Shown here in pieces: positions 6,101 to 38,348 of a stretch of 38,774 nt of DNA (position 1 is its first letter; every line of letters starts with the position of its first letter). Source of the stretch: Planctomycetales bacterium. Lineage in GTDB: Bacteria; Planctomycetota; Planctomycetia; Isosphaerales; Isosphaeraceae. Made by a program: the position numbers and the translations under genes. The stretch covers positions 1 to 38,774 of the forward strand of contig DAIDKV010000207.1 in assembly GCA_027449865.1 (NCBI GenBank), given 5' to 3'. A model generated the notes under the pieces. It did no database searches. It was not told where the DNA came from and worked only from the letters and a program-made list of their open reading frames with translations.

Positions 6101-7570
6101 GCCACGCTGAACATCACATCGCTGTCGGTGGGCGTTCACTCGATCGAGGCCGTCTACCTCGGCGACGCCTCGTTCCATGCTGGCCACTCCGCCACAATCC
6201 CGCAGACGGTAGGCCGGGCTTCCACCACGACGACGGCCTCGACCCCGCCACCGTCGGTGAGCTTCGGCCAGGCCGTGAACCTCTCGGCCTCGGTCTCGGT
6301 CAACGCGCCGAGCACCCAGCCGGCCCAGTCCCCGACGGGCACCGTCGACTTCTACGACTCGACGACGGGCGTCGATCTTACGCCGGGCGGCGTGCCCCTC
6401 TCGGGCGGGTCGGCCTCGCTGAGCACCACCACGCTGCCCGTCGGCCTCCAGACGATCGTCGAGACGTATTCCGGCGACGGGAATTTCCTGACAAGCTTCT
6501 CGACGCAGTCGGAATCGATCGTCGAGGCGATCTACGTTCTCAACGCGACGCGGCCGGCGCCGAGCCTCAGCGGAACGATGTACCTGTCGGGCGCCGCCTC
6601 GATCAACATCCCGGGGCGGATCATCGTCGACTCGCCCGCGTCGCCGGCGTTGACGCTGGTCGGGAACTCGCGCGTCACGGCGGGGAGCGTCGGGGTGGTC
6701 GGCAAGGTGAACGTGGCCGGAAACGCGAGCATCAGTCCCACGACAACGGGGATCGCGGCCGTTCCCGACCCGCTGGCGACGATCCCGGTCCCGTCCGTCG
6801 CCGGAACGCCGACGACGGTCCGCGTCTCGTCCGGCTCGCGAGAGATCGCGCCGGGGGTCTACGGCTCGATCGAGGTCTCCGGCACGGGGAGCCTGACGAT
6901 GCAGCCGGGGGTCTACGTCATCGCGGGCGGCGGCCTCTCGGTGACGAACAAGGCGACGCTCACCGGGCTGGGTGTGATGATCTACCTCGCGAGCCCGGAT
7001 GACCCGTCGGCCGAGGGGACGGACAGGGGCGTCACGTTGAGCACGAGCGGGGCGGTCAGGCTGTCGGCCCCGACGACCGGGCCCGATGCCGGCCTGCTGT
7101 TCTTCGAGTCCCGGACCAACCCGTCGGTCATCGCGCTCCGCGGGGGCGATGTGAACCTCTCGGGGACGATCTACGCCGCGGACGCCCTGCTGTCGATGAG
7201 CGGCACGGCGCAGGTCTCCGGGGCGCTGGTGGTCAACCGCCTCCAGATGAGCGGTCGCGCGGCCGAGACGGCGACGGCGGGCAACTCCACGACCCCCATC
7301 CCGGTCGATCCGCGAGGATTGGTGCGAGTCGCGACGGCCTTCGCCGGCTCGACGGTCGTGGCCCCGCACGTGCTCGGCGCGCTCGAACCGGCCCCCGACA
7401 GGCCGACCGTCGTTCTCCGGTCGAAGTCGGCCTCGGCGCCGGCGGCGGCGATCGTCGCGGTCTCCCGGGCCCCCCGGGTTCGCCCCTCGGCGATCGTTGG
7501 GGCGCGTCCCTTGGGGGGCCGAATCCTCGATCGGGCGTTCGACGCCGGCGACGATTTCTGGCGGGCCTGA
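164..7570 (+). CDS. giant PKD-repeat, beta-propeller surface protein, N-terminus apparently missing
   Basis: This 2468-residue protein is built from extracellular modules. Residues 1-225 are glycine-rich. About 420-830 carry beta-propeller repeats of the SPDGQNLYAVN type. About 880-960 have GGAGND stretches like calcium-binding hemolysin repeats. Six PKD domains show WGDG motifs near residues 1131, 1431, 1531, 1640, 1743 and 1844. Two bacterial Ig-like domains follow at about 1920-2110 (GTVEFLDT and GTVDFYDS). About 2140-2390 is a right-handed repeat region resembling domains beside TadG/pilus-type proteins. The likely role is a secreted or cell-surface adhesin; this is inference from the domains. 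No signal peptide follows the ATG at 164, and no clear ribosome site precedes it. The frame is open back to base 1, but the bases before about 120 look coding in another frame. The start is therefore uncertain and the true N-terminus may be lost. Confidence 0.8.
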   Translation: MNPGLTGFTLVGGGGGGGGGGGGGGGGFDGDGYYYDQSGSTGRPGYGGSHGGTGGNGGTGGGGGAGGGALKIEAMGSFVSEGALTIKAEGASGLPNLPGGQGRSGYKNTSTSSVIGTRTHGGTAGKAGPGGKGGKGASGGNGGMGGGGGGGTIWVAASALDLSTATLNVSGGGGNYSGSSGTSPVHNSGGQVLMQYNALGAPLQVGVGQSQGKYVHSLTGAQPLGQNPYNTAGASTPQIPGPDQTLPSSKSVGLAAGADTFGLLNVSLSQLEAADPQIATALSQEPSNALVGVLAVSGLVDSNNQPLLSLFPGYDVLLVANLTSVTLANPALSVGIGGSAGTPIGLEEGGLSTNAQVGETGSEQKITGLGAGDVWITLIPAGQSSASIAASIAGRFTPSGTTLATGSAVTGANPIYLLSPESAPSFGAAVPGLNAVAVSPDGQNLYAVNTAQGLLVGVDAGSLAQRQTFQYGQPYAGTAPNIAGLAGAVAVGVSPSDGHAVYVLGSSTLSVFSRNANGDLTYLPAALATFSTQLVGTPTSLAVAPDAANTTNDQVDLVFIGGTAGVAEFQVDATTQTSTFIAQEPFAGSPISGLAVSQDGTLLYGTVPTAGVLLVWQTSPFGLVQVYGAPSFAGAPSTTLAGASSLAVGPHDAYVYVLGAGSGSGAGAGTLTVLAREKDSQGHLTDQFSWVQTLQDGSAGARGLTGATGVAASTDGKYVYVTSATTDTLAIYATQPGGGLVLDQVISGTAGLGQPSAVVVNPASDVVEVASAAGTGVGGGGLATFVPIASGGAPPRSLSVSYQSMQSLSLTLGDAQNTVSEVNYPTISSTNPAPAALTINPGDGASSIDLASVQGTTTVNDSTGIGPMTVSVNATSPSTELNILGGAGNNEVNLYAGNGSINISLGSGNSTALIEGTALAGFTPVTLTGGAGNDVLVFDSQGNPVDTYYSNGTPVIGNAPQIPNGEIGVQGYNLVDYTGISSIPGYAGAVVNLTGNVFVTEGGNVSLSATATPATNSRILSAAFDLAGNDSYAFPAIVGGASGSSYPISATLTWAQLVSAGITAPGTYPIALRVISDTNTVTVFGQLQVQPAAPSVSITTMTSAVVGVPFMIGLVGGEPAGVGYGIAGWIVNWGDGSAISLPSGATSATHIYSDAGTRQITATAIDPYGTNAVSKTINVSYSSAVSVSADGPYTILPGQSLTLTATASGVPAAASGPPTQFVWYLKGQGNGPSIASAPASRSAIGVWNGQVTLTWAQLVALGIQETAYPDLQVEVDYPTGGGTITEFASTTLTVEPTATLQATATLGGAGTVTFVNPNPSLTQTPAPTYSYDFLDNGQFEIAGTASPSEPIPAALLAQPGSFVIHGRLTAPDGTYTDEYVDVTVADRPPAVTVGPIQTIAAGAACSLGGVGFTDPGFALPNSPWGLTATINWGDGSTTAGVLDVTSPAGQSTAGTIAGSHVFAANQTYTVTVTVTDPYGLSGSSSFQVKVGPPTITVSAGPNRSIGEGANFTLDQTTFTDTGAPIGETARINWGDGTASQSVPAADLFAPATPGDPGSIALGHVYGYPGTFTVTVNVGDASGVSSSGSFLLTVTDVAPTVVGGPAVPQTPGVPVNLSAAFTDPGFPVGGLAKTYAATIDWGDGTTTNGTVTLAPGGPGVPTAGTVIGTHAYARHGDFTATVKVLDSLGGQGTGSVLVLDVPPTVTAGPDQTVNQGSPVAVDATFEDFGHVPGVSASSYTAVIHWGDGHTSAGTVAIASAPAGGPVIGTVTGSYTYSDQGQYPVSISVTDAGGGVGTGTFQATVVDVGPTLASLPAGIPVLGQAFTLNESFIEPGIAPHDSVAINWGDGTTVSFDANSLFIEPDGTEVPFITEPNGNNPGSIILSHTYNNFGPYTLTVTLTDRDGKSSTVSEVLRPAAATAISTPTSSTQGVSVYGQPVTFTATVSALSPGMGTPTGTVEFLDTTNSQNIGEVPLSSSGVATLNITSLSVGVHSIEAVYLGDASFHAGHSATIPQTVGRASTTTTASTPPPSVSFGQAVNLSASVSVNAPSTQPAQSPTGTVDFYDSTTGVDLTPGGVPLSGGSASLSTTTLPVGLQTIVETYSGDGNFLTSFSTQSESIVEAIYVLNATRPAPSLSGTMYLSGAASINIPGRIIVDSPASPALTLVGNSRVTAGSVGVVGKVNVAGNASISPTTTGIAAVPDPLATIPVPSVAGTPTTVRVSSGSREIAPGVYGSIEVSGTGSLTMQPGVYVIAGGGLSVTNKATLTGLGVMIYLASPDDPSAEGTDRGVTLSTSGAVRLSAPTTGPDAGLLFFESRTNPSVIALRGGDVNLSGTIYAADALLSMSGTAQVSGALVVNRLQMSGRAAETATAGNSTTPIPVDPRGLVRVATAFAGSTVVAPHVLGALEPAPDRPTVVLRSKSASAPAAAIVAVSRAPRVRPSAIVGARPLGGRILDRAFDAGDDFWRA

Positions 7571-11473: not shown

Positions 11474-12391
11474 CTATTCCAGCAGGGAGAACTGTTGCGT
11501 CTTGGCGGCTACCGGCGGCCGGCTGTTACGCAGGGTCACCCCCTTCTCGTCGGCCTCCAGCTTGGCGTCCGGATAGGCGGCCTGGACTTGGCGGAGGGTA
11601 TGCAGGAAGCGGCGGCGGAAGTCGCGGACGCGAGCGAACCCCTGGCCGAACTGCTGGTGCAGGGAGTTCCAGGCGATGAATTGATCCTTCTTCGGGGAGA
11701 TCCGGTGGAGGCGCTGCGCCAGCCACACGTAGACGTCGAGCGCCATCGAGGAGCCCGAAAGCGCCGCGATGGCCCGGTGATCGAGCGGGACGGCGTGACG
11801 CCCGAGGCTTTGGAAATACTCCTCGCTCAGGCGCACGGTCGAGGGCCAGAGGACACGCTGATCGGCCTGTTTGGGGAACCACAGGTCGAAGGCGCTGACG
11901 ATCTGGGTGTTGACTTGCACCGCCCTTCCCTCCTCGACGATGCCCATACGCAGCGTGGCCGAGGCCAGGCGGGCGAGCTGGTCCTTGAGCATCCGCAGGT
12001 GGTGGCCGTTGGTCTCGATCCGCAGCGACCGGGCGAAGGCCGTCATCGAGTCCTCGACGTCCACCACGGGCTGGCCGGTGCGGACGGCTTCGCTCGCGAG
12101 GTGGATGAGCACCAGCCGCGGCTTCTCGCCGTACGGCAAGCCCAGCCGGACGAACTCGCCTGTGCGGGGGTCGATGGCGGAGCCGGCCTCGATGCGCAGC
12201 ATCGCGTTGCCCTGCTTGCGGTCCCATTCCCGAACATCGTCGCCGGGATTGTTGTAGGGGATGCCGCACTGGCATTGGATGGTATGCAGGTAATCGATCC
12301 GGTCGGGGCGTTCGGCCTGGATCAGCCCCGAGGCCTCGACCAGCTTCTTCTGGTGGCGGGTGAGCGTGAGCTGTTCGGGTGGCTGGGTCAT
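11474..12391 (-). CDS. repA: plasmid replication initiator RepA
   Basis: The 305-residue product resembles plasmid-encoded RepA proteins (Pfam RepA_C type), common on alphaproteobacterial and planctomycete plasmids. Recognisable stretches include GNAMLRIEAGSAIDP near 80, LPYGEKPRLVLIHLASEAVR near 105-124, the winged-helix segment ITN-like IETNGHHLRMLKDQLARLAS near 150, and SMALDVYVWLAQRLHRI near 220. It should bind the iterons immediately downstream and open the origin with DnaA. The start at 12391 gives the family-like N-terminus MTQPPEQLTLTRHQKKLVEA. Placing the origin at the 3' end of its own gene is unusual but known. Expression is probably controlled from 12392-12539, where a perfect palindrome lies. 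Its presence argues that this island was, or still can be, a replicon. Confidence 0.85.
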   Translation of the reverse strand: MTQPPEQLTLTRHQKKLVEASGLIQAERPDRIDYLHTIQCQCGIPYNNPGDDVREWDRKQGNAMLRIEAGSAIDPRTGEFVRLGLPYGEKPRLVLIHLASEAVRTGQPVVDVEDSMTAFARSLRIETNGHHLRMLKDQLARLASATLRMGIVEEGRAVQVNTQIVSAFDLWFPKQADQRVLWPSTVRLSEEYFQSLGRHAVPLDHRAIAALSGSSMALDVYVWLAQRLHRISPKKDQFIAWNSLHQQFGQGFARVRDFRRRFLHTLRQVQAAYPDAKLEADEKGVTLRNSRPPVAAKTQQFSLLE

Positions 12392-12473
12392 ATCGGTCGG
12401 GCTATGTCGTTGAGACGGCGACCATAGCAGCGGGTCGGGGTGGGTGTCAAAGCCGGGTGACGGGGTATCACAC

Positions 12474-12485
12474 TGTCACGTGACA
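12474..12485. promoter_or_regulatory. perfect 12-bp palindrome upstream of repA
   Basis: TGTCACGTGACA lies 83 bases upstream of the repA start, between repA and the partition genes. Related pieces (CACGTGTCAC, CGTGTGACA) recur in the array upstream of parA. It could be an operator for RepA or for the ribbon-helix-helix partition protein. This is inference from position. Confidence 0.4.
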
Positions 12486-12539
12486 CGATGAAACCTTGAC
12501 CATTGAGCAAGGGGATGGCGTTATCGCACCGGCCGGACT

Positions 12540-12836
12540 TCATCCCTCTCCCCTCCCCTTGAGCTCGGCGATGGTGGGCAACCCCTTCTGGCGGAACACC
12601 AGATCGAGCCCGTCGAGAAGGTAGTCGTGCATCTTCCGGCGTTCATCGAAGGCCAGGCGGCGAAGCTGCTCATGCACGGGGATCGGCAGATAGGTCGAAT
12701 GCGCGACCGTCCCCTTGACGCGCTCGCGGCGGCGCGGCGGCTCCGGTTCGGACGGCGGCGCGGCGGGCGGCTCCGCCGGGGCGGTGTTCACCGTGCGGCT
12801 GAGGATCGCGTCAAGCGACGTTCGTTTCTTGCTCAT
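12540..12836 (-). CDS. ribbon-helix-helix partition partner of ParA
   Basis: This 98-residue protein follows parA with a 26-base overlap, the position of the small centromere-binding protein in type Ib partition loci. Residues 1-45 are a flexible Pro/Ala/Glu-rich and basic arm (APAEPPAAPPSEPEPPRRR). About 47-90 resemble a ribbon-helix-helix fold: a short strand AHSTYLPIPV, helix HEQLRRLAFDERRK, then helix MHDYLLDGLDLVFRQ. In such systems the dimer binds centromere repeats and stimulates the ParA ATPase through its flexible arm. I chose the ATG at 12836 because it opens MSKKRTSLDAIL, a common start for these proteins. The likely target is the 120-bp repeat array upstream of parA. Confidence 0.7.
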   Translation of the reverse strand: MSKKRTSLDAILSRTVNTAPAEPPAAPPSEPEPPRRRERVKGTVAHSTYLPIPVHEQLRRLAFDERRKMHDYLLDGLDLVFRQKGLPTIAELKGRGEG

Positions 12837-13455
12837 GCGTGACCTTCTCCATCTTGCGGACAATCCAGTGCCAGAGCTGGGCGATTTCGGCGGCGGCCTT
12901 GCCGCCGGGCTCGAATTCGGCGACGCCGAGACCCGCGCCGTGTGCGTCCTGATAGGCGGTGCGGGCGACGATGCGCACCGGGCAGACGATGCCGAGCATG
13001 CCCAGACCCATCTCGGCCTCGGTGATCCGCCCTCCCCTCGGCGGCGTCTGGGTCAGGACGAAGGCGGCGGGCTTGGCCAGGCGCTTGATCGCCTCGGCCG
13101 TGGGCAGCGTCGCCTTGAGATCGACAGGCGTCGGGCGGCAGGGGACGATACAGAAATCTGCGGCCCGGATGGCGGCGGTAGTCGAAGGCTCGTCGCGGCC
13201 GGGCGTGTCGATCAGGACATAGTCGAATCCGGCGGCCTTAGCATTGGACAGGGCCTCCGGCAATTGCCAGGAACCGACCTTGACCAGGCGCGGCGCCTCG
13301 GCCTCGCGGTCCTGATACCAGCCCTCGGCCGACGCCTGGGGGTCGAGGTCGAGGATCAGGGCCGCTTTCTTCTGACCGGCCAGGACGGCGCAGTTGAGGG
13401 CGAGAGTGGTCTTGCCGGCGCCGCCCTTTTGGGTGATGAACGTGATGATGCGCAT
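12811..13455 (-). CDS. parA: ParA-family partition ATPase
   Basis: The 214-residue product has the deviant Walker A box KGGAGKTT at residues 10-17, the A' motif LILDLDPQAS at about 33-42, and Walker B YVLIDTPG at about 79-86. It lacks the N-terminal DNA-binding extension of type Ia ParA, so it is a small type Ib enzyme. It should bind nucleoid DNA when ATP-bound and move the plasmid as the partner protein stimulates hydrolysis. The operon order is parA, then the ribbon-helix-helix gene, then repA, all on the minus strand. The array of 120-bp repeats starts about 100 bases upstream of its start codon and is the expected centromere and operator. Confidence 0.9.
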   Translation of the reverse strand: MRIITFITQKGGAGKTTLALNCAVLAGQKKAALILDLDPQASAEGWYQDREAEAPRLVKVGSWQLPEALSNAKAAGFDYVLIDTPGRDEPSTTAAIRAADFCIVPCRPTPVDLKATLPTAEAIKRLAKPAAFVLTQTPPRGGRITEAEMGLGMLGIVCPVRIVARTAYQDAHGAGLGVAEFEPGGKAAAEIAQLWHWIVRKMEKVTHEQETNVA

Positions 13456-15296: not shown

Positions 15297-16796
15297 TCAC
15301 GGGCCTACGACCGGAATGGCGGCAAATCGACGTGCCCAGGCGGCGCACGCGATGGAGTCTGGTGCGCACATGGGACAGGCGGGGTCTCGAAGAAAAGAGG
15401 CAGCGCGATTCGAGCGCGCCAACGGAGAAAAGAACTGGAATGTAGCGCGTTGACGGGCTTCGGAGAGCGGTTCATTGTGAGGAAGACAATCCTTCAACAA
15501 CGCCGCCGCGAGCATGACGCCCGCCAGCACCGAAACGAATCCGACGGCGAATTCCGGCTCCCCCTCGACGCGGCGGAGCAACGGGAGCAGCCGTGCTCCG
15601 GCGAGGCCACAAGACCCGGTCGCAAGCCAGTCTTTCGCTTCGGCCAAGGAGATCCCGGCCGATTCGGCCAGTGTCGCGAGTTCGGCCTCGCCTGCGGTCT
15701 TGAGCCTCGACCGGAGTTCTTGGTCCGGGGGGATCTTCTCGGGCTGGTTGAAGCAGCGAAGACATGCCCCGACCCCGGGGGGGCCGCAACGGAGGACCTC
15801 AGCTCTCAGGTCGGATGTAGACCCAGAGAGGATCCGGGCGGGATACTGGTTCTGAATCGCTGCGCGGGCCGTGTTGCGGTCCACCGCGGAGACAACGCGG
15901 GGCGTCGACAGCCGGAAGGACTCGATCTCGCGATCATGCGCGCTAAATCGAATCGAGGAATCCGAGAGTGCCCCGGCAGCGGAAGTTGCTTTCGGCGAGC
16001 CTACCGACGTCCGACCGAAAATGGAGTAGCGGTTCAGATTCGTCATGTCCAGGCCCTTCGGGTCGTTGTCGATGAGCACCATCGCGCCCCGTAAGGCAGG
16101 ACACGCCCACAGCGAATGCAACACGCCTGAGCCGACGGCTCCGACGCCGACGAGCGAAGCGTCCAGGGTGAGTTCGATGTTAGACGGGCCGAGGCGAGCG
16201 GGGAGTTCTGCCGCAGAATGGCTCCAGCAGGAATAGAATGCCGATGGAGGGGCGGCGTATGTTCCAGGCTGCATTCTCGCTGCCTTGAACACCTCCGCGG
16301 CGGCGATGCAGGCTGCGATGTAGGGGCCGAACGGGAGCGGCGACTCGTAGTCCAGCCTCTCCATACCAGCCCCGGTCAGAGATACTCCGCCGCACCATCC
16401 TCCCCCGGCGGCAAAGAGGTCGGCCCCGCCGGACATCGGTCGGGCCGGGCCGACGACGATGGTTCGACCGAGTTCTAGCTCCTCAACGACCGGGACGATG
16501 CCGATCGCGTTCCCCCCTACGACCAGCGCCGACCTCAGATCGAGGTCTCGGGATGCGAGCGGGATCACGCGACCGCTCAGGCCGATGCCGGAGGGGCAAC
16601 GGACGGCGACCTTGTGGACGATGCCGTCGAGACGCGCCAGGAGGTTGATGAGCATCCAGGCCGCGTGCTGCGTTGAGGGTAGCGCTGCGGCCTCGCGGGG
16701 GATCGTGATCGTGATGCCGACCTGCTCAACGTTGCCAAAGGGTAAGAAGCGACCGCCAAGATCGCCCTCGTGCCGGCTCGATACGCGCTGGCTCAT
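15297..16796 (-). CDS. E1-like ubiquitin-activating enzyme (ThiF superfamily)
   Basis: This 499-residue protein is the last gene of the ubiquitin-like operon. The adenylation domain spans about 205-440. It has the nucleotide loop VGVGAVGSG (216-224), acidic LIDND (241-245), NLNRY (253-257), a Lys at 269 and VSAVDRN (302-308), all canonical E1/ThiF landmarks. Cys pairs CLRC (345-348) and CPMC (474-477) could bind zinc. Cys396 in GSCGLAG is a candidate for the thioester cysteine, though I cannot prove that. Residues 20-200 form a separate N-terminal domain. Its job would be to adenylate the Gly-Gly tail of the ubiquitin-like protein and pass it to the E2. The ATG at 16796 overlaps the JAMM gene by 71 bases, a long overlap, so the true start may be later. 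Confidence 0.88.
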   Translation of the reverse strand: MSQRVSSRHEGDLGGRFLPFGNVEQVGITITIPREAAALPSTQHAAWMLINLLARLDGIVHKVAVRCPSGIGLSGRVIPLASRDLDLRSALVVGGNAIGIVPVVEELELGRTIVVGPARPMSGGADLFAAGGGWCGGVSLTGAGMERLDYESPLPFGPYIAACIAAAEVFKAARMQPGTYAAPPSAFYSCWSHSAAELPARLGPSNIELTLDASLVGVGAVGSGVLHSLWACPALRGAMVLIDNDPKGLDMTNLNRYSIFGRTSVGSPKATSAAGALSDSSIRFSAHDREIESFRLSTPRVVSAVDRNTARAAIQNQYPARILSGSTSDLRAEVLRCGPPGVGACLRCFNQPEKIPPDQELRSRLKTAGEAELATLAESAGISLAEAKDWLATGSCGLAGARLLPLLRRVEGEPEFAVGFVSVLAGVMLAAALLKDCLPHNEPLSEARQRATFQFFSPLARSNRAASFLRDPACPMCAPDSIACAAWARRFAAIPVVGP

Positions 16797-17268
16797 TGAT
16801 CCTCCTGAAATCAAGTAGGCCGGGGACGAGCCGCACGTACAAGGCGACCTCCTCGGGTGAAAGCTGGCGCCAGCCAGTCCCGGATCGCAGATGGACGCCA
16901 GCTTGCTCGAGCCGCGGCTGCGAGCGGCCGAAATGCGGCAAGACGATCGAGAGCGAACCGGGTAACTGGGAGTAGGTCCACTCGTCGTCCCAGCGCGAAT
17001 GGCCGGTCCATTCCCCCGGATGAGTATGGACCTGTGCCAGACGCCGGAGCTTGAACCCACGCAGATGCTTGCCGGCCTGGCTCATCGCCTCCGGCGTCAC
17101 GTGGAATCGGCCAGCTTCGAGCAGCGCGCTCGGGATAGTGATGGTTGTGACGACACCCTCCTCGCCAATGAGTATGCCGTCGAAGTAACAGACCTGCTCG
17201 ACGGTCCGCTTCTCCTTTGCGAATTCCGCCAGCATGGCGGCCCAGAGGGAATCCGGAATGGTGATCAT
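16726..17268 (-). CDS. JAMM/JAB deubiquitinase-like metallopeptidase
   Basis: The 180-residue protein carries the JAMM zinc motif exactly: His81-Thr-His83, seven residues, Ser91, two residues, Asp94 (HTHPGEWTGHSRWD). Glu24 in the segment before CYFDGILIG is a candidate for the catalytic glutamate. Strands GVVTTITIPSALL and SLSIVLPHFG complete an MPN fold. In ubiquitin-like operons such enzymes trim the precursor after Gly-Gly and remove conjugates. Here the substrate would be the three-domain polyprotein two genes upstream. The start at 17268 overlaps the E2 stop in ATGA, indicating translational coupling. An upstream Met would add 29 residues of Arg/Pro-rich shadow. Confidence 0.9.
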   Translation of the reverse strand: MITIPDSLWAAMLAEFAKEKRTVEQVCYFDGILIGEEGVVTTITIPSALLEAGRFHVTPEAMSQAGKHLRGFKLRRLAQVHTHPGEWTGHSRWDDEWTYSQLPGSLSIVLPHFGRSQPRLEQAGVHLRSGTGWRQLSPEEVALYVRLVPGLLDFRRINEPARIEPARGRSWRSLLTLWQR

Positions 17269-17783
17269 CCCCCTGGCCCCCGGTAGTATTTGGGCGACAG
17301 CGCTTCGGCGAGGCGGTAGAGCGTAGCGGCCACCGTATGCCGGCCCTGCGTCCATACCTCCGAATCCTTGGGTGAATGGTCCGTCATGTAGAATTCAGCG
17401 GACAACGTGAAGCAGACCAATTGTCGTCGCGGCCCGCTCGGCCACGGGTACTCTGCGTGCAACCCAAACCATGAGGGCTTCGGATCGAGGGCAGGGAACC
17501 ACTTCGACTTTTCGGGAGGATGGGTAAGACCGTCCGGCTCGACAAGCGCCACCGTTGGCGGGGCCGCATCGTAGTATTCTGCGCCGAGACGGAAGTAGTA
17601 CGCGTCAATCTCCCCGCTCGACCTTGTCGCGGGCAGCGCAACGAGCGTGTGAAGTGGATCCAGGTCATGGCGAAGCCACCCGCGTCTACCGGGGCGGCCG
17701 GTGTTCCAGAGGCGGTCGAGATGCTCTTTGAAGATCGCTGCCGCGATCTCGGGATCGGCGAGCGCGAGGGCCTTCACCGGCAT
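17265..17783 (-). CDS. E2-like ubiquitin-conjugating protein
   Basis: This 172-residue protein lies between the ubiquitin-like gene and the JAMM gene. It follows the E2 order: an N-terminal helix (PEIAAAIFKEHLDRLW, 11-26), strands around AYYFRLGAEYYDAAPPTVAL (61-80) matching the usual beta meander with its PP turn, a WFPAL loop, then QLVCFTLS with Cys124 followed by helix RHTVAATLYRLAEAL (148-162). Cys124 is the only cysteine and falls where E2 enzymes hold the thioester cysteine. The similarity is structural pattern, not sequence identity, so I call it E2-like. The ATG at 17783 gives a 10-base overlap with the upstream gene. An upstream in-frame Met would reach into that gene's coding tail. 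Confidence 0.65.
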   Translation of the reverse strand: MPVKALALADPEIAAAIFKEHLDRLWNTGRPGRRGWLRHDLDPLHTLVALPATRSSGEIDAYYFRLGAEYYDAAPPTVALVEPDGLTHPPEKSKWFPALDPKPSWFGLHAEYPWPSGPRRQLVCFTLSAEFYMTDHSPKDSEVWTQGRHTVAATLYRLAEALSPKYYRGPGG

Positions 17784-18502
17784 GCCGCACCCCCGGTGCC
17801 GCCGACGAAGCACCAGACCAGGCAGGGGCAATGCCCGGCCTCCATATACTGGCCAAGCGTCAGGTTGGCGAAAACGAACACGTCCTCGCCCGTTTCTTCG
17901 CAGCGGAGGCGGTCGTCAGCGCGTCGAGGGACGCCGAGTTTCACATACATTTCGGCGAAGAGCGCTTCGAGTCTGGTGGCCTTGGACGCCTCAAGCCGAA
18001 ATTCCGCACCATTCTCCTCGTTGACGATCTCGACCGAGCATTCTCGTTCGACATAGAATCTTTCGATGCCGGGTGCCCCCAGATCGACCGATTCGCCGCG
18101 GTTGATCAAGCGGTCGGGCTCGCCCTCCCGCGCCATCCACACGCGAAAGCCGTCTCCCGCGCCGGCGAGCTTGAGGAGCGTCTCCTCGGTGATGGTGGGG
18201 CATCCCCAGTCCTCACGTTTGCCGTCGATCTCGAACCGGAACGACCGGTCGGCCTGGAAGGTGAGGAACCGTTCGACGCCGCGCTCGTGAAGATGGACCC
18301 TGCGATCCAGGCCTAAGTCTTCCAGTACGTTATCTTTCCCAAGCCAGTAGACCAGGTAATCGTCCGGCGGCAGCCTCTTCGCGGCCTCGAGCACCTCGCG
18401 ACCGCTCACGTGCCCCTGGGGAACCACGACGTCCTCGCCGTCAACGATGATAGTCAGCTCATGCCGCTCGGCCTCGCCGCGCGCAGTGTGATCGTCAGCC
18501 AT
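17774..18502 (-). CDS. tandem ubiquitin-like polyprotein with Gly-Gly tail
   Basis: The 242-residue product consists of three ubiquitin-like units. Unit 1 (about 14-84) and unit 2 (about 86-152) follow the multiubiquitin pattern, each opening with a strand such as HELTIIVDGEDVVVP or SFRFEIDGK and closing with ERFLTFQ or ERFYVER. Unit 3 (about 155-235) is a different branch, beginning CSVEIVNEENGAEF and ending CLVWCFVGGTGGAACR. The Gly pairs at 234-235 and 237-238, followed by only a few residues, are the expected JAMM cleavage point, leaving a Gly-Gly end for the E1. It is the first gene of the operon. GAGG about seven bases upstream supports the ATG at 18502. The mature modifier could be the whole trimer or unit 3 alone. 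Confidence 0.85.
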   Translation of the reverse strand: MADDHTARGEAERHELTIIVDGEDVVVPQGHVSGREVLEAAKRLPPDDYLVYWLGKDNVLEDLGLDRRVHLHERGVERFLTFQADRSFRFEIDGKREDWGCPTITEETLLKLAGAGDGFRVWMAREGEPDRLINRGESVDLGAPGIERFYVERECSVEIVNEENGAEFRLEASKATRLEALFAEMYVKLGVPRRADDRLRCEETGEDVFVFANLTLGQYMEAGHCPCLVWCFVGGTGGAACR

Positions 18503-18548: not shown

Positions 18549-18577
18549 ACTATAATCTCCTTTGCTCGAAAAATCAA
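18549..18577 (-). promoter_or_regulatory. predicted promoter of the ubiquitin-like operon
   Basis: On the minus strand TTGATT (18577-18572) and TATAGT (18554-18549) are separated by 17 bases, a good sigma-70 layout. Transcription would start near 18542, about 40 bases before the polyprotein start codon. One operator copy (18563-18580) covers the -35 box and part of the spacer. Confidence 0.6.
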
Positions 18578-18580
18578 GCA
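18563..18580. promoter_or_regulatory. operator 1, TGCTCG-N6-CAAGCA
   Basis: An imperfect 6-6-6 inverted repeat (TGCTCG, AAAAAT, CAAGCA) overlaps the -35 region of the leftward promoter. It is the same motif as operator 2, centred 47 bases away. Small XRE-family repressors typically bind sites of this size. Confidence 0.6.
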
Positions 18581-18609
18581 CGCGCATTTTTTCGTGCAAG
18601 GCGCCGGCC

Positions 18610-18627
18610 TGCTTGATTTCCCAAGCA
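18610..18627. promoter_or_regulatory. operator 2, TGCTTG-N6-CAAGCA
   Basis: A perfect 6-6-6 inverted repeat (TGCTTG, ATTTCC, CAAGCA) overlaps the -35 box of the rightward promoter. The divergent XRE gene starts 37 bases downstream and is the natural candidate to bind it. Confidence 0.65.
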
Positions 18628-18663: not shown

Positions 18664-19080
18664 GTGGGAGTTCCGACTCCGATCCTGTCACCGTCCGAAC
18701 GCGGCCCCTTGGGGCAGTACCTATGGAGCCTGCGTAAAGCCGCGCAGATGACTCAGCGGGAGGTGGAAGAGGCTTCCGAACGGAAGGTATCAAATGCTTA
18801 TTTAAGTCAGATAGAAACAGGGGCCATCCCGAGCCCGTCCCCGGCGATCTTGCAGGAGCTTTCGAAGGTCTACGGTGCCCGGTTGCCGGCGAACGCGCCC
18901 GTTACCTGCTCGTACGAACGAATGATGGAACTCGCAGGTCACCTCTGCCCGGCACGTGAGGCGGCAGCCCAACCGACCCAGCGGCTTACCTCGTTCGCGG
19001 GCGAGCAACTCACTCCCGAAGAAGAGGACGAATTATTGAAATATCTAGCATTTATAAGAATGCGTAAAGGGAAAAAGTGA
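18664..19080 (+). CDS. XRE-family helix-turn-helix regulator
   Basis: The 138-residue product has a classic XRE domain at about 16-72: LGQYLWSLRKAAQMTQREVE, then recognition-helix region SNAYLSQIETGAIPSPSPA and LQELSKVYG. The C-terminal part (80-138) contains ERMMELAGHL and an acidic helix (TPEEEDELLKYLAFIRMRKG), probably for dimerisation or signal sensing. I chose GTG at 18664 because AAGGAGG lies five bases upstream; an ATG 102 bases earlier would overlap the operators and promoter. It faces the ubiquitin-like operon, and two copies of an inverted repeat lie between them. It most likely represses both arms until a trigger, perhaps infection, relieves it. The ATPase gene follows after 75 bases. 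Confidence 0.9.
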   Translation: MGVPTPILSPSERGPLGQYLWSLRKAAQMTQREVEEASERKVSNAYLSQIETGAIPSPSPAILQELSKVYGARLPANAPVTCSYERMMELAGHLCPAREAAAQPTQRLTSFAGEQLTPEEEDELLKYLAFIRMRKGKK

Positions 19081-19155
19081 AGTAATGAGTTTTTCATCTG
19101 GCTACGGGTCATGCCCGCCCATCGCAGCCTGTTCTCAAGGATGGAGGTTCCCACG

Positions 19156-21045
19156 ATGAAGTGGACGTTGCAGTCGCTAAGCACGACGAGCGGTTATCTC
19201 CAATCCTGTCCCATCGAGTTCAGGCCCGGCCTCAACTGCATCATCGGCGCCCGCGGGACGTGCAAGTCTACGGTGGTTGAAACGATCCGCTACGTCTTTG
19301 ACTGCGAGCCGGAGAAGATCGAGCCCATGATCTCCGGCGTCGCACCGGCCACCTCGAACGGGCCCTTTGCCCGGGCTGGCCTCCTGCTGGAGACCCTGGC
19401 GGGCGGCACGGCGAAATGCGCCATTGGCGCTGCCGACGACCCGACCCAATCGAAGTACGTCGTGGAAAGGAACGCGCCCGCCCCGTCCCGCGTGTACCGC
19501 GATGGCGTCCAGCAGATCGACGATTCCGCAGTACTCCATAGGATCGAGATCTTCTCGCAGGGTGACCTCCAGACGATTGCGGAGAGGCCCGAGCGGCGCC
19601 TTGCCCTGATCGACCGGCCTAACCAACGTCGCGTGGCGGAACTCGCCAGGCGCATGAAGGAAATCACCGAGGACTTGAAGGCAATTGGTCCGGTGATCCG
19701 CCAGGTGCGGTCGGAGATCGAGTCGCGACAAGCAAAGGTCCAGGCCCTCGAGCCGACTCGCAAGCAACTTTCCGAACTTCAGGCTAGTCGTCCCATGCTC
19801 TCTCCGGAACTGGAAGCCGAGCGGGCCGCCTACAACGACCGACGCCGCGCGTTCGAGCGCCTGAAAGTTGCCGAACAGTCCCACGCACGGGCGATGGATG
19901 CATGTCGTGCCTTGCTCGCCGAGGAAACCGCGATCCGCGATGCCTCAGCGTTCGCCGAAGGGCTCGGCAGCCCAGGCGCCCACAGGATCGCGGCGTTGCT
20001 GGCAGACTTCGCCGGTGCTGCCGCCGTGCTCCGCAAGGTTACGGAGAGGCCGGAGGCATTCGGGGATGCGCTCGCGGACGTGGGTGCCGACTTCGAGGCT
20101 TTGAACGTCAGGTATTACGAGCTTCGAAAGGACCAGCAAGCAGTCAACGAGGCCCTGAAGACCGAAGAGTCACTCCGCCAGAACATCGGGGCGATGGAGG
20201 CGGTGGAGGCCGAATTGGTCGAACAGAACGCGAAGTACGCCCGGGAACTGGCGCGCAGACGTGACCTACGAGCCCAGCGCGACGCCTTGGCGGACGAGCT
20301 CTACGCGTTGCGGCTGGCCCAGATCGAGAAGATCAATTCGGAGTTTGGCGAGCAGATCGTCCTCACGCTGGAGCCGGGCGTACTGACCGCGCGTCACAGG
20401 GAGCTGATGGAACAGCTCCTCCAGCGATCAAACCTCCGCAACCAGGCGGAGGTCGCCCGAGATCTCGCGGAGAAGGTGCGGCCTTCCGATCTGGTAGACA
20501 TCATCGAGGCGAGCGATGCCAGGCGCCTGGCCGACGCGTTGGGCCGGGACCTGGGGCAAATGACGCGTCTCGTGAGCCACCTGCTCGATAATATCCGGCT
20601 CTTCGAGCTGGAGACCATCGTCCCTGAGGACAGCCTTGAGATTACCATGCTGGTGCGGGGGGAGGCCAGGCCGATCGAACAGCTCTCCAAGGGGCAGATG
20701 GCCACGGCGCTGCTGCCGCTGATCCTCCGGGAGGCGGAGTATCCGCTCATCGTTGACCAGCCCGAGGACGACCTCGACAATGCATTCGTATCAGAGAAGC
20801 TCATTAAGCGGCTGAAGTCGCTGAGCCATAAGCGCCAGCTGATATTCGTCACGCACAACGCGAATATCCCGGTTCTCGGTGATGCCGACTGCGTCGTTGT
20901 GATGGAGATGGACGGTCCCCGGAAGGCCCAACCCTGCCGGCGCGGCTCGGTGGACGAAATGAGGGAGCCGATCATCACGCTGCTGGAGGGCGGCAAAGAG
21001 GCGTTCAGGAGTCGTCAGGAAAAATACGGCAATGCGCTGCGGTAA
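19156..21045 (+). CDS. SMC/ABC-type ATPase with coiled-coil arms
   Basis: The 629-residue protein has the head-coil-head layout of SMC-like ATPases. The P-loop is GARGTCKST (31-39), with Cys where Gly normally precedes Lys37. Long charged helices fill about 150-420 (RRMKEITEDLKAIGPVIRQV and onward). The signature IEQLSKGQMA is near 510, Walker B is LIVDQPEDDLDN (531-542), and the H-loop is FVTHNANIP near 564. The DQPEDDLD form recurs in ATPases of phage-defence and DNA-repair systems. The C-terminus (MREPIITLLEGGKEAFRSRQ) may contact a partner. I chose ATG 19156 because GGAGG lies eight bases before it; earlier Met codons lack a site. The kinase-like gene follows after six bases with its ribosome site in this gene's stop region. 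Role: a DNA- or particle-sensing motor, by inference. Confidence 0.85.
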   Translation: MKWTLQSLSTTSGYLQSCPIEFRPGLNCIIGARGTCKSTVVETIRYVFDCEPEKIEPMISGVAPATSNGPFARAGLLLETLAGGTAKCAIGAADDPTQSKYVVERNAPAPSRVYRDGVQQIDDSAVLHRIEIFSQGDLQTIAERPERRLALIDRPNQRRVAELARRMKEITEDLKAIGPVIRQVRSEIESRQAKVQALEPTRKQLSELQASRPMLSPELEAERAAYNDRRRAFERLKVAEQSHARAMDACRALLAEETAIRDASAFAEGLGSPGAHRIAALLADFAGAAAVLRKVTERPEAFGDALADVGADFEALNVRYYELRKDQQAVNEALKTEESLRQNIGAMEAVEAELVEQNAKYARELARRRDLRAQRDALADELYALRLAQIEKINSEFGEQIVLTLEPGVLTARHRELMEQLLQRSNLRNQAEVARDLAEKVRPSDLVDIIEASDARRLADALGRDLGQMTRLVSHLLDNIRLFELETIVPEDSLEITMLVRGEARPIEQLSKGQMATALLPLILREAEYPLIVDQPEDDLDNAFVSEKLIKRLKSLSHKRQLIFVTHNANIPVLGDADCVVVMEMDGPRKAQPCRRGSVDEMREPIITLLEGGKEAFRSRQEKYGNALR

Positions 21046-21051
21046 GGAATC

Positions 21052-23022
21052 ATGGAGACGTCGTTTGAATGGGACAGCGGATTCTTCTCGATCGACACGG
21101 CGGAGTTCGACCGCGCGCTCTCTCGGCTCAGACGCCAGAATTCTTCACAAGCACGCGACCCAGGGCGGATCGGCGATCTGGCCGGGGCGCTGAGGGATCA
21201 GCCTGGTATCCCGCGACGTGAATTCGACCGCCGGTTCCGCCTGATCGTCGGCACGATCGTGGAGGGGGCCCCGGCCGCCTTGCAGGCTATCGCAGGGCCT
21301 CTGCGGGAAGCCTCGCCCGAAGCGCTGAACGCGCTCCGCACGCTGCTCCCCGCGGATTTGAGGCATGTGGCGGCGCCACCTCGAACGACCACGCAAGACC
21401 AGGCGCCGTTACAGACCGCTGCAAGGTCCGTGGCACCGTCCGAGGTGGCTTCCACGAAGGAGCCTGCCCAAACGCTTGAGTTCAGCGCGTATTCCGCCGT
21501 CGCCCTGGTAGGGACGCCGGATGAGCACGTGCGGAATGAAGGATTGCTTCGCCGCCACGACCTCCAGCCGCTTCGTTTGCCGTCGTTGGACCATCTCTGG
21601 ACGATCGCCTCGACGGGACTGTGCGGATTCGTCATCGGCGGCTCGGTCTGGAGACAGTTGCAAGTATCGGAACATAATCGGGTTATTCGCCTCATCTGCC
21701 AATACTCGACCTTCCTATTCTCGCGGACCTGCATGGACGGACTCAGCGACGAGGCCGCCCGCAACTTCGCGCAGAAGGCCATCGAGGCGCGCTGCGGGCC
21801 TCTGGACGGTCGGAGATTCTGCCACGGGCAGGACTGCGAGTTATCGCTCTCCGACATCTCCGTCCTCCAGGATGCGGCGAGGCGTTTGGAGGCCGCCGGG
21901 GGCGTCGATTTCTTTCCCCTGGGGCTGTCCGAGTCTGATGCGGCCCTGCTCCGTCTGATCGCCGAGGAGCGGCGCCCTCCGCATCGTCCGGTGACGATTC
22001 GTAAATTAGAGACGCGTGAACTCGTGGGCGGTCGCTCGGGAGCCCGAATCTTCCTCCTCAACGACGGCAGTTCGCAGCCTTTCGTGGCAAAGGTCGGAGA
22101 GTTGGAGGAGCTGGGGGCGGAGATTCGGCGGTACCGTGATTGGGTCGCGGACTGGGAGCCGAACGGCACCAGTCCGACATTTCACGCGCATTCGGGCAGC
22201 GCGGCGATCACCTATCGCCTCCAGGCATCGCCCGATATTGAAGGTCATCCAGCTCCGACGCTCGAGGATCGGCTGGACAAGTTGCGTTCTGCGGAGTGGA
22301 TCGAGTCCCTCGAGAAATGCGATAGCATGGCGAATGACCTCTACCTCGCCGTGGAACGTGCCGCCGATCGTCTGGTCGAGTTGAATAGCAAGCGATCAGG
22401 GCGTGCCTCTCCCGACGAAGAATTCTGGCTGCACTGGCCAGTCCGAGACCTCGCCTCAAGAGGCATCGAGTTCACAGTAGTTAATAATGCTTGGCAGAGC
22501 ATTTCTCTCTGGGAACTCGTCCAGGAAGCGGTGCGCTGCGTGCAACCAAATCTAAGTCTCGCCATCACCCACGGCGACATCCACGGGCGTAATATTCTGT
22601 TGCTTGATCGGCTGCCGGCGTTCATCGACTTCGCACGGAGTGGGCCCGGCCACCCGTTCGCCGACCTGATTCGGCTCGACGCGGCGGTGAGGACATCGGC
22701 GATGCGGATGCTCCTGAGCAAGCAGTCCATGCACGACCTTTTTCATTCCGTCTACGTCGAGGGAGCCGACGCGAATTCAATCCTGCGCGAGAATCCGCTG
22801 GTGGCCGCGTCGCCGTTGGCCAAGCTGGCCATCCGTACGGCGGCCAAGGTCCGGGAGGCGGCGGACTCGGTAAGCGTCGCCCATCACCTCAGCTTCTCAG
22901 ACTTTTACGCGATGCACTGCCTCGTGTCCGCCCACATCCTCGCCAACCAAAACCCTGGCTCCGGAATCGAGAGGCTGATGCTGAGCGTGCACGGTTCGAA
23001 GTTTTTGTCAGACCGGAGTTGA
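21052..23022 (+). CDS. two-part protein with C-terminal kinase-like phosphotransferase domain
   Basis: In this 656-residue protein about 315-545 form a protein-kinase/aminoglycoside-phosphotransferase fold. It shows a Gly-rich loop GGRSGARIF (326-334), Lys347 in FVAKV, Glu357, a catalytic loop HGDIHGRNIL (507-516) with Asp509 and Asn514, and Asp526 in FIDFA, replacing the usual DFG. All catalytic positions are present, so it is probably active. It resembles the kinase-like TCAD9 class of conflict-system proteins, as far as I can recall. About 145-300 form a separate alpha/beta domain (SAYSAVALVGTPDEHVRNEG, then LCGFVIGGSVW) that looks receiver-like but is unassigned. Residues 1-110 are helical. 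The gene directly follows the ATPase, and its stop lies 23 bases from the convergent operon. The substrate is unknown; the ATPase, the ubiquitin-like system or a host factor are candidates. Confidence 0.75.
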   Translation: METSFEWDSGFFSIDTAEFDRALSRLRRQNSSQARDPGRIGDLAGALRDQPGIPRREFDRRFRLIVGTIVEGAPAALQAIAGPLREASPEALNALRTLLPADLRHVAAPPRTTTQDQAPLQTAARSVAPSEVASTKEPAQTLEFSAYSAVALVGTPDEHVRNEGLLRRHDLQPLRLPSLDHLWTIASTGLCGFVIGGSVWRQLQVSEHNRVIRLICQYSTFLFSRTCMDGLSDEAARNFAQKAIEARCGPLDGRRFCHGQDCELSLSDISVLQDAARRLEAAGGVDFFPLGLSESDAALLRLIAEERRPPHRPVTIRKLETRELVGGRSGARIFLLNDGSSQPFVAKVGELEELGAEIRRYRDWVADWEPNGTSPTFHAHSGSAAITYRLQASPDIEGHPAPTLEDRLDKLRSAEWIESLEKCDSMANDLYLAVERAADRLVELNSKRSGRASPDEEFWLHWPVRDLASRGIEFTVVNNAWQSISLWELVQEAVRCVQPNLSLAITHGDIHGRNILLLDRLPAFIDFARSGPGHPFADLIRLDAAVRTSAMRMLLSKQSMHDLFHSVYVEGADANSILRENPLVAASPLAKLAIRTAAKVREAADSVSVAHHLSFSDFYAMHCLVSAHILANQNPGSGIERLMLSVHGSKFLSDRS

Positions 23023-23045: not shown

Positions 23046-26000
23046 TCACATGCGAAAAGAGGGACGCCTTACGGCCTCGGTGAGCCATGCGATGAGCACT
23101 CCTCTGGCCTCTTCCAGACCAAGGACGTTGAGGCCGAAGAGTTGCGGCAAGACCGTGATCAATGCCTGCACCAAGTCCAATCCTTCTTTGCGGCATGCCA
23201 GCTTTTCTGCGATCCGAATCAGGACTGAATGCCGAGTCATGGCGAGTACGGCTTGCCGGTAGACTCCGGCGATCGTCGCCGCTGCGAGGCCGCACGCGTT
23301 TCCGGCATCGAGCGACTCGTTCGCGACTTGCTCCAGGGTTTGCTTGAACGGCCATTTGTCCGGATTCCAGTCGGTGAGAACCCCGGCGCGGATCACGACG
23401 GCCTGATTGAACATGGTGCTCCGATAATCGAAGCCGAGAAGTTTCGCGCTGACGGTGGCGTAGGTCTGCTCATCGAAATACCCCCGCCTGCATCCATATT
23501 CGACCGCAACCTGCGTCCAGCCGTGCCGCGTACCGAACTCGCCCGCCGCCACCTTGGCCAACGCCAGATCATCCGCCCAGAGCACGTTCCCTGGCAAAGA
23601 ACCAAGAATCATGCTTTCAACTCCGTGCTGTCCTAAAACATTTGTCAGTTCCTCGCGCTTGTCGGGGTCCATCGATGCGAGTTCCTGGCAGCCCCGGATC
23701 TCACATTTCCCGAGCACGACGTCGATCCACGTGCTGAGCCCGTCCTGTTCCAGCTTCTCGGCCTCGGCATCGACTGGGATAAAGTGATACCCGCGCTCGG
23801 TCTTGCCAAATCGGCTGTGTGGCGGCGCATTCCTCCTGGCATCGTCGAGGAGAGAGCGCAGTTCCTGAGCGGTGTCCTGGGAGATGATCAGTTTCCCATC
23901 CCATCGTTCCAGAATCCTCTCCTCGCGGAAGAGGGAAAGCGTCGCGATGGCGCTCAGGTGGAGGACGATCGCCGTGCATCCCTCAAAGGAATCCATTGCC
24001 TGAACGCGCTCCTCCGGCGTTCCTTCACAGCAGCGGACTTCCAGCCCGGCGAGCAGCGCCGCGATTATAGACGCATCGTAATCTTTGCATCCCAACAAAT
24101 GGGCGAAGACGTGTATCGGTATCAGGCTGGTCTTGTACGTCTCTTCGGCCGTTTTTCTCTGCTGAAACTGGTTGTCGGCCACGAGCATTATGTCTGTTGG
24201 GTCAAACTCGACCTGGCCTGTCGCGGGATTTCGGCGTGTGGTCTGAAAGACTTGCATCCAGGGTATGTCCCGGAAGCGAACTTGCCAGCTATCGGCGATG
24301 TACCTCATCCTATAAACGTACTTGCTGAGAATATCCTTGATGACGCCCATCCTGTCCCGCGCGGTGCTCTTCCCGAGGAGAAAGGATTCTCCAATCCGCT
24401 TGCCCTTCAGCTCCTCAGCGAAGGGATCTTCCGGCGGGTATTCTCCGATCGCCCGGTTCGGATTGGGTGAGTCCTCTATGATGATCCACGTGTCGGTTCG
24501 GCCTTCTTCCGAGTAGCATACGGCGCAGCCCGGCTCAACCGCCGCGGGATGATGGATATTCGGTTGCGCGGAGTCCGGCGCCAGCACGGCCATGAAGAGC
24601 GCCTGGTTGGCCACCGGATCGTCGAAATTCCGACGGAACAACTCGTACGCATAGTGCATGGCTTCCGTGGCCCTGCCGCTCTTGCGGAGGACTTGCACCG
24701 CCAGCGCGCCGGTGTTCGGCGTGACGGTATCCAGATCGGGGATGGCCTCTGGCCGGGCATCGACCAAGTCGGCTCGCTCGCGGTGGAGCCCTATACCCGA
24801 GAGTCGGATACGGCTGACCCGATCGGCGGGGTGCGAGGCAAGGTATTCCTGGAGGACAGCGATGGCCTGGTCGATATCGTAAACTTCAAGGATGTCGAGT
24901 TCTCGATGCAATAGCCAAGGGTCGTCGATTCCTGACTCCCGTAGCCGTTTGCAAACCTTGAGAATCACATCGTGACGATTGACTCGGTCCGCGCATTTGA
25001 TGAGATGATAGACGTCCCCGGACATCTCGCCGGGTTCGTTCAATTTCTCCCAGAGCGGGAGGGCATCTTTGTGGCGTTCCAGCCTGACCAGTTGGATGGC
25101 CAGCGCGCGGAGGTCGTTGCGGGATGTCCGATCGGTGATGCCCGCTAGGCTTTCGTCCGCCGCCGTGAGCGCCTTGGCGCGATCTCCGGCGGCAAGTGAT
25201 TGTTTTGACCGGGCCGTGGCGGTGGCCACGCCCGAGAATCGCCCGTCCGAAACCGAGTCGAGGAACCCGCTGAGTTCATCCAAGCGAGATTCTTCGATGA
25301 GGCCCTCGATGGAGGCGTGGAATGCCTCCTCGCGGAGGAGAGACAGGCTCTCCGGGCTGAGCCGGTTGAGGCTTTGCTCCGGCGACAATGCCTGAAGCGA
25401 CGCCATGTTGATAAATAGATTGGTTGCTTCGCGCCTGTCGTCGCCCTCGTTTCGCTCCCTCAGGGCGCGTGCCAGATGATACTGCACGTCCATCCCGGCA
25501 TTCAGTGAGAGAACTTTCCTCAGGGCTCTGATCGCGCCGGCTATGTCGCCTCGGTCGTGCAGGTGAGCGGCGTAGCGGTAAAGGACGCCGGGTTCGTCGG
25601 GAGCGATGCGCACTGCCTCGCCGAAATCCTCATCGGCGCCGTCTTCGTTGCCCAAGAGCGCCTTCGCCACGGCCCGTCGGAGTAGTGGCTCGACCGTTTC
25701 GTGCGGCCGTTGCTGGTCACCTCCCAACTCGATCGCGCGGTCGAATGCAGCGATAGCCTCCTGGATTTTCGATCTGTCTACCGTTGGGCGGCTCACCCAG
25801 TATTCCCGGTCCGCTCTTGTGAGCTGGCCCGCGAGGCACGCTTGCCCCAGCAGAAAATGGGGGGCGATCCAGTCGTCCTTGGCATCAATCCCACGGCGCG
25901 CGAATTCCTCGGCTCGATCAAAAAGGGACTGGTCCATCGCCTTCATCGCAAGCGCGACGCACACCTCGGCGTCCTCAGCCGCTGCAAGCGGGACCCGATC

Positions 26001-26918
26001 TTCAAGATCCTCCAAGGTAAGAGACGGCGGCGCGTTACGAATGAGTGCAGCGGTGAGCTTGGAGGAGATAGGGTATGCCTTGAGCAGATCGGCCGCGAGC
26101 GTGTAGGCCCTCTGCCTGTCGCCAAGGAATTCGTAGGCCAGCGCCTCGTTTACTTGTGCGCGTTCGGTGTCGGGCTGGTGGTTCTTGGCTTCGAGCAGGA
26201 GTCTGGCTGCATCCGCCAGCTTCCCTTCGGAGTGGAGGACATTGGCGAGTGCGGCATCGACTCGATACTTCTGCTGGGCCGAGAGCGAGTCCCACTTCCT
26301 GCGCTTGATCTTCTGAAGGTGGAGCTTGGCCATCTGGTGGTCGTGGCTCGTGAGGAAGCTCAGTGCCTCGTCGATCTCCATATCGATCAGGTCGGTGGAA
26401 GTTGCGCCCAGCACGACCGCTTGGGCAGCCTGGATGGTTGAGAGTTTGCGGTCGATCTCAACAAGCTGTGAATTCGTTACCGACAGGAGCTCGTCCTTGA
26501 CTTCCGGGTATTGATCGAGAAGCCGCTCGATCTTCTCCCAAGAGAAAAGCTCGACCTTGAACAAGCCCGTTGCGGCGTGCTCCTGGTTGATCCTGATAAC
26601 CTCGTTATGTGCTTGTGTCGTTATTCTTCCTGTCGTGAGAATGGCATAGTGATCGAGCGGGGGGGTGAAGCCCTTCGCCTTCTCCACCTCATCGCGTATA
26701 TCCGCCGGTGGTAATGTCTTCTCTGGCTCGTGGTGCTTGCACTGGGCGGCTTTGAAGGGGCTGGAATACCCCAAGTCGATGATATCCACGCCGAACTGGC
26801 GCTCTCCCCGTTTGCCGTAAAGTTCGAGCGAAGGATTGCTCCAGTGCCGGATCAGCAGCTTGAGGCAGAATTGCTCGAATTCCTTTTCGTTGCCGGGGTG
26901 AGGATAGCGGTAGCTCAT
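23046..26918 (-). CDS. Mrr-like nuclease, TPR, GreAB-C and PIN-type fusion protein
   Basis: This 1290-residue protein is the last gene of the defence operon. Residues 1-110 form a PD-(D/E)XK nuclease of the Mrr type, with FGVDIIDLG (Asp45) and AAQCKHH (Gln59-Lys61). About 190-780 are tetratricopeptide repeats (for example QVNEALAYEFLGDRQRAYTL). About 830-880 match the C-terminal domain of GreA/GreB-like factors (KGKRIGESFLLGK). About 975-1150 look like the PIN domain known from TPR-GreAB-C-PIN proteins. In that domain the usual first Asp appears as His987 (IVLHLSAIATL), while the later Asp pair in VLWADDLALA is kept. I chose ATG 26918 because GAGGAGG lies ten bases upstream; a TTG nine bases earlier would overlap the preceding stop. 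The likely role is a nuclease effector scaffolded by repeats. Confidence 0.75.
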   Translation of the reverse strand: MSYRYPHPGNEKEFEQFCLKLLIRHWSNPSLELYGKRGERQFGVDIIDLGYSSPFKAAQCKHHEPEKTLPPADIRDEVEKAKGFTPPLDHYAILTTGRITTQAHNEVIRINQEHAATGLFKVELFSWEKIERLLDQYPEVKDELLSVTNSQLVEIDRKLSTIQAAQAVVLGATSTDLIDMEIDEALSFLTSHDHQMAKLHLQKIKRRKWDSLSAQQKYRVDAALANVLHSEGKLADAARLLLEAKNHQPDTERAQVNEALAYEFLGDRQRAYTLAADLLKAYPISSKLTAALIRNAPPSLTLEDLEDRVPLAAAEDAEVCVALAMKAMDQSLFDRAEEFARRGIDAKDDWIAPHFLLGQACLAGQLTRADREYWVSRPTVDRSKIQEAIAAFDRAIELGGDQQRPHETVEPLLRRAVAKALLGNEDGADEDFGEAVRIAPDEPGVLYRYAAHLHDRGDIAGAIRALRKVLSLNAGMDVQYHLARALRERNEGDDRREATNLFINMASLQALSPEQSLNRLSPESLSLLREEAFHASIEGLIEESRLDELSGFLDSVSDGRFSGVATATARSKQSLAAGDRAKALTAADESLAGITDRTSRNDLRALAIQLVRLERHKDALPLWEKLNEPGEMSGDVYHLIKCADRVNRHDVILKVCKRLRESGIDDPWLLHRELDILEVYDIDQAIAVLQEYLASHPADRVSRIRLSGIGLHRERADLVDARPEAIPDLDTVTPNTGALAVQVLRKSGRATEAMHYAYELFRRNFDDPVANQALFMAVLAPDSAQPNIHHPAAVEPGCAVCYSEEGRTDTWIIIEDSPNPNRAIGEYPPEDPFAEELKGKRIGESFLLGKSTARDRMGVIKDILSKYVYRMRYIADSWQVRFRDIPWMQVFQTTRRNPATGQVEFDPTDIMLVADNQFQQRKTAEETYKTSLIPIHVFAHLLGCKDYDASIIAALLAGLEVRCCEGTPEERVQAMDSFEGCTAIVLHLSAIATLSLFREERILERWDGKLIISQDTAQELRSLLDDARRNAPPHSRFGKTERGYHFIPVDAEAEKLEQDGLSTWIDVVLGKCEIRGCQELASMDPDKREELTNVLGQHGVESMILGSLPGNVLWADDLALAKVAAGEFGTRHGWTQVAVEYGCRRGYFDEQTYATVSAKLLGFDYRSTMFNQAVVIRAGVLTDWNPDKWPFKQTLEQVANESLDAGNACGLAAATIAGVYRQAVLAMTRHSVLIRIAEKLACRKEGLDLVQALITVLPQLFGLNVLGLEEARGVLIAWLTEAVRRPSFRM

Positions 26919-26923
26919 GGAAT

Positions 26924-30250: not shown

Positions 30251-30264
30251 GGATCCTCACCACT

Positions 30265-34842: not shown

Positions 34843-38348
<3,506 letters not shown>

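Follow-up and report, generated by a model that had tools for sequence, protein, structure and literature searches.

Operons of the bilABCD (Bil) type encode a ubiquitin-like protein (UBL), an E2, a JAB isopeptidase and an E1, in that order. BilA has been described with two domains, and the CEHH of BilB, for which the Pfam family is Metal_CEHH, has been described as well (PMC11354881). The Bil systems that have been studied tag the central tail fibre of phages (PMC11364771, PMC12948488). A second group with similar UBLs consists of the polyUbl proteins, described in 2006 with two to three domains (PMC1779556), and the Bub operons, for which anti-phage activity is unproved and which may mediate stress responses (PMC13373217).

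We analysed a window of 38,774 bases, comprising one entire contig, in which a first-pass annotation had proposed a complete UBL-E2-JAMM-E1 operon of the Bil type, made up of four overlapping minus-strand genes. Recomputation from the coordinates bore out this layout at positions 15297-18502, where the genes, in the order UBL, E2 candidate, JAMM and E1, overlap at their junctions by 10, 4 and 71 bases. Position-specific GC was coding-like in all four operon genes (4/4), and an AGGAGG ribosome site lies upstream of the E1 start. The genes of the operon are as follows:

17774..18502, minus strand: BilA-like UBL, 242 aa, three beta-grasp domains
17265..17783, minus strand: E2 candidate in the BilB position, 172 aa
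16726..17268, minus strand: JAMM/JAB isopeptidase, BilC-like, 180 aa
15297..16796, minus strand: E1, BilD-like, 499 aa

The proposal of a complete Bil-type operon was backed by family, PDB and synteny evidence, with the E2 assignment being probable. We consider it likely that this is a divergent bilABCD-type operon for UBL conjugation, probably directed against phages; the locus represents a rare and divergent case of the described Bil kind, not a new system. The locus shares with Bil systems the UBL-E2-JAB-E1 order, a beta-grasp UBL with a C-terminal Gly-Gly, an intact BilC-type JAMM, a BilD-type E1 with its catalytic Cys (both enzymes matching the BilC and BilD models and structures) and a defence context. 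However, its UBL has three domains, where BilA has been described with two, and its E2 candidate gave no match to the Metal_CEHH model and has a Tyr for the first His.

The JAMM protein matched the PADLOC BilC model (2.5e-11) and the BilC structure 8tyx in the PDB (1.1e-5), and the exact JAMM box that had been claimed for it is indeed intact (H81-x-H83-x7-S91-x2-D94), with a conserved upstream Glu (E24). The E1 matched Pfam ThiF (2e-13), PADLOC BilD (3.8e-15, covering residues 24-317) and the BilD structure 8tyz (9.6e-16), so that both enzymes, by profile and by structure entry, belong to families known from Bil-type systems, as first suggested. The E1 comprises an N-terminal inactive-domain region, a Rossmann adenylation domain and the catalytic Cys396, and its zinc cysteines (345/348/474/477) form two CxxC pairs. 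Motif alignment recovered all of the adenylation motifs attributed to this protein (GxGAVGxG, D243/D245, NLNR, K269 and SAVD), together with Cys396. These motifs, including Cys396 and the CxxC pairs, are common to the other JAB-linked Bil-type E1s in the alignment, whereas the Bub-type E1s have no Cys corresponding to Cys396. In the E1 tree the window E1 took no firm placement, as the fork is open and the branches are long. The class 6e polyUbl (Iyer 2006) and Bub operons resemble the locus in having UBLs with two to three beta-grasp domains and a similar sequence and fold. However, the Bub-like operons that we examined (L018 and L019) contain a Prok-E2_E protein, an E1 without the Cys motif, and DUF6527 replacing the JAMM gene, and we rejected a Bub assignment because the window has a JAMM gene, an E1 that carries Cys396, and an E2 that does not match Prok-E2_E.

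The UBL matched Pfam Multi_ubiq (2.6e-29) in two stretches, and its sequence matched the PDB entries 9cd2 (2e-20), 8u38 (named BilA; 1e-19), 9d5b and 9d59, all of which are bacterial multi-ubiquitin proteins. Its domains span approximately residues 13-84, 87-153 and 154-232. Structure prediction with AlphaFold (pLDDT 66) found the anticipated beta-grasp folds as three units, the third of them less certain. The top Foldseek matches of this model were the same PDB multi-ubiquitin structures that had been found by sequence (9cd2, 5e-15), and the lower ones were mostly linear ubiquitins, USP7 UBL domains and ISG15. The first-pass annotation had regarded the three-unit modifier as an unfamiliar layout, which did not hold: the layout is known, since it was described in 2006 and structures of multi-domain bacterial UBLs have been solved (9cd2, 8u38, 9d5b and 9d59/9d5a), and it also occurs in rhizobial loci. 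According to the PDB titles of 9d5b and 9d59, related three-domain bacterial UBLs form filaments; Gong et al. (2025) reportedly described calcium-dependent filaments of three-domain bacterial UBLs, in agreement with these titles. The protein does end, as had been stated, in Gly-Gly and a few further residues (FVGGTGGAACR), and both Gly-Gly pairs fall within the last nine residues (residues 234 and 237 of 242). The TGGA near this end is invariant across six loci (the window and its five closest relatives), and because the UBLs of all five relatives end in TGGA, the most likely trimming point would lie between TGG and A.

The E2 is the weakest and only mildly new part of the system, being a branch that matches no family model. 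The 172-aa protein contains the single Cys that had been reported (C124), as well as H136, a PP motif (P75-P76) and W144. It gave no match in Pfam, PADLOC, NCBIfam or the PDB, a profile search run besides the single sequence gave none in the PDB or Pfam, and the Metal_CEHH model was silent at the E2 gene in the genomes of the window, Devosia, R. phaseoli and R. esperanzae. Homology to the Devosia E2 was clear (BLASTP 2e-11). P75-P76, Cys124 and Trp144 were invariant across 11 loci, including loci with Pfam Metal_CEHH E2s, and His136 was conserved among close relatives. Of the CEHH residues, the Cys, the Glu and the last His are present, and the Tyr in place of the first His is common to the window E2 and its close relatives. 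When the E2 group was compared with the Metal_CEHH group by hhalign, a weak match was obtained (42% probability, E 2.6e-4) in which the catalytic Cys aligned; the E2 profile reached 7% probability over 27 columns against the Bub E2 family. An AlphaFold model from a shallow alignment of four sequences (pLDDT 37) was unusable, and its Foldseek matches were disregarded. The identification of this protein as a probable E2, which would adopt the UBC fold, is supported by synteny, by the PP motif, by the conservation of its only Cys and by the weak profile match to Metal_CEHH.

The search for homologous loci, in which an enzyme might have been consistently missing, instead found all four genes in identical order in each of five loci (Sinorhizobium fredii GR64, Rhizobium sp. 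WYJ-E13, Devosia submarina, R. phaseoli and R. esperanzae), which rules out a chance gene order. In all five, the UBL terminates in TGGA, the E2 has the Cys and the His, the JAMM box is present, and the E1 retains its catalytic Cys together with the zinc cysteines. They resemble the window further in the lengths of the UBL (about 240 aa) and the E2 (about 172 aa) and, in several cases, in a divergent HTH gene. They differ in that their UBL stops at the A where that of the window runs on to AACR, and in that several pair the HTH gene with an ImmA/IrrE protease gene. The same gene order was present in a more remote locus of R. leguminosarum pRLN3 and in loci where the UBL is shorter and the E2 belongs to Metal_CEHH (for example L006). 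Sequence identity between the window proteins and their relatives was 22-35%. Among 392 genomes of the same phylum, relatives of the UBL and E1 were confined to the window's own genome (1/392), which points to horizontal gain, and no relatives were found on the viral contigs searched. A locus of Mesorhizobium huakuii (L015, 3172-5808), perhaps another divergent E2 branch, combines a JAB and an E1 with a UBL-sized protein of 98 aa and a protein of 151 aa that weakly resembles DUF7665.

The operon sits in a defence island to which HmaABC, a YhcG nuclease and an ATPase/TCAD9 module also belong. The other features of the window are:

164-7570: protein of 2468 aa with PKD/Ig-like repeats, within the high-GC flank
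11474-13455: plasmid-type RepA_C replication protein and ParA partition ATPase, adjoining the operon
18563-18580 and 18610-18627, no strand assigned: two 18-bp palindromes (TGCTYG-N6-CAAGCA), in the region separating the UBL operon from the divergent HTH gene
18664..19080, plus strand: Xre/CapH-like HTH regulator, 138 aa from GTG (the listed ORF begins at 18562)
19111-23022, plus strand: SMC/TrlF-family ATPase and TCAD9/APH-kinase-like protein pair, downstream of the HTH gene
23046-26927: protein of 1293 aa containing TPR repeats and a PIN-TPR-GreABC domain, with a weakly LmuA-like N terminus
26924-38348, minus strand: complete Hma defence system (PADLOC, E about 0)
26924-30250, minus strand: HmaC ATPase (PADLOC)
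30265-33375, minus strand: HmaB methylase (PADLOC)
33706-35472: YhcG/DUF1016 nuclease ORF, between HmaA and HmaB
34839-38348, minus strand: HmaA helicase (PADLOC)

GC content is about 0.70 in the first 8 kb, where the 2468-aa repeat protein is probably an ordinary chromosomal surface protein, and about 0.63 thereafter. The island had been called integrated, which cannot be shown here because the window is a whole contig; no tRNA genes were found in the window and thus no obvious integration site. The SMC/TrlF-family ATPase was matched by an NCBIfam model at 1e-81, below its cut-off, and the ATPase/TCAD9 pair is possibly a separate conflict system that shares the HTH regulator.

The HTH protein, whose gene most likely starts at the GTG at 18664, matched Pfam HTH_31/HTH_3 and PADLOC capH (5.9e-5), and this divergent regulator likely controls the UBL operon. 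The palindrome pair at 18563-18627 is a putative, and likely, operator; within the window the pattern had zero-mismatch matches solely at these two sites, from which it was derived. A similar inverted repeat (TTGTCAAGCA/TGCTTGACAA) lies at the matching place in S. fredii (L004, 3053-3084), and HTH and ImmA/IrrE genes occupy the corresponding place in several related loci. In the window there is no protease gene adjacent to the HTH gene, and the three ImmA/IrrE genes of this genome are all on other contigs. CapH and CapP pairs release their repressor upon DNA damage (PMC13373217).

In the mechanism that we propose, the JAMM (BilC) would probably trim the AACR tail of the UBL to expose the TGG end, and the E1 (BilD) would adenylate the exposed glycine and then load the UBL on Cys396, from which it would be transferred to Cys124 of the E2-like protein. 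This protein would couple the UBL, with its three domains, to lysine residues on the targets, from which the JAMM could also detach it, and the divergent HTH repressor would control the operon. From the family and the neighbourhood, the role of this conjugation is likely anti-phage, by the tagging of phage structural proteins during assembly.

The presence of three UBL domains per chain together with a JAMM protease in the operon could also suggest a tandem-UBL polyprotein that the JAMM cuts at internal Gly-Gly into single modifiers, as in eukaryotic polyubiquitin, and the first-pass annotation had expected cleavage after the Gly-Gly pairs. This is extremely improbable, since the only pairs (residues 234 and 237) lie at the extreme C terminus, contradicting that expectation, and the domain boundaries have no Gly-Gly in the window UBL and no conserved Gly-Gly in its relatives. 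Moreover, the domains were no more alike than shuffled sequence, and a repeat of near-identical units was therefore rejected. As judged by its sequence, the UBL is a single three-domain modifier and not a chain of modifiers for cutting apart, and because both pairs are at the C terminus, the JAMM should trim the last residues only. The 172-aa protein might alternatively be an adaptor or other partner, with the UBL passing straight from the E1 to its targets, which would fit its failure to match any family at any threshold, its unusable fold model and the silence of the Metal_CEHH model. We regard this as quite unlikely, given the conserved lone Cys and following His, the PP motif and Trp held in common with Metal_CEHH E2s, the hhalign match that aligned the Cys, and the E2 position that the gene occupies in a bilABCD order.

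The conjugation that the operon is proposed to carry out could also serve a purpose other than phage defence. A stress response or self-assembly would be consistent with the filaments of related three-domain UBLs, with the stress responses proposed for Bub operons with similar UBLs, and with the HTH and ImmA/IrrE genes of several related loci, a kind of regulator pair (CapH and CapP) that responds to DNA damage. However, the E1, the JAMM and the gene order are of the Bil type and the operon is located in a defence island, and we think this purpose unlikely compared with the anti-phage conjugation favoured above. A broader proposal is that the E2 represents an uncatalogued branch with a Cys-Glu-Tyr-His site, that the UBL is conjugated with its three domains intact and serves as a bulky or filament-forming tag, and that the divergent HTH protein may co-regulate the adjoining ATPase/TCAD9 module, making both one composite defence unit; that all of this holds jointly is doubtful, and we offer it as speculation.

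As a Bil-type operon, this locus extends UBL conjugation of that type to a phylum in which it is otherwise very rare (1/392 genomes), and it reveals a four-gene branch common to the window and rhizobia whose E2 is recognised by no public family model. Confirmation of the E2 would indicate how much variation the active site of BilB tolerates, and the compact three-domain UBL system would offer a means of testing tag size against defence.
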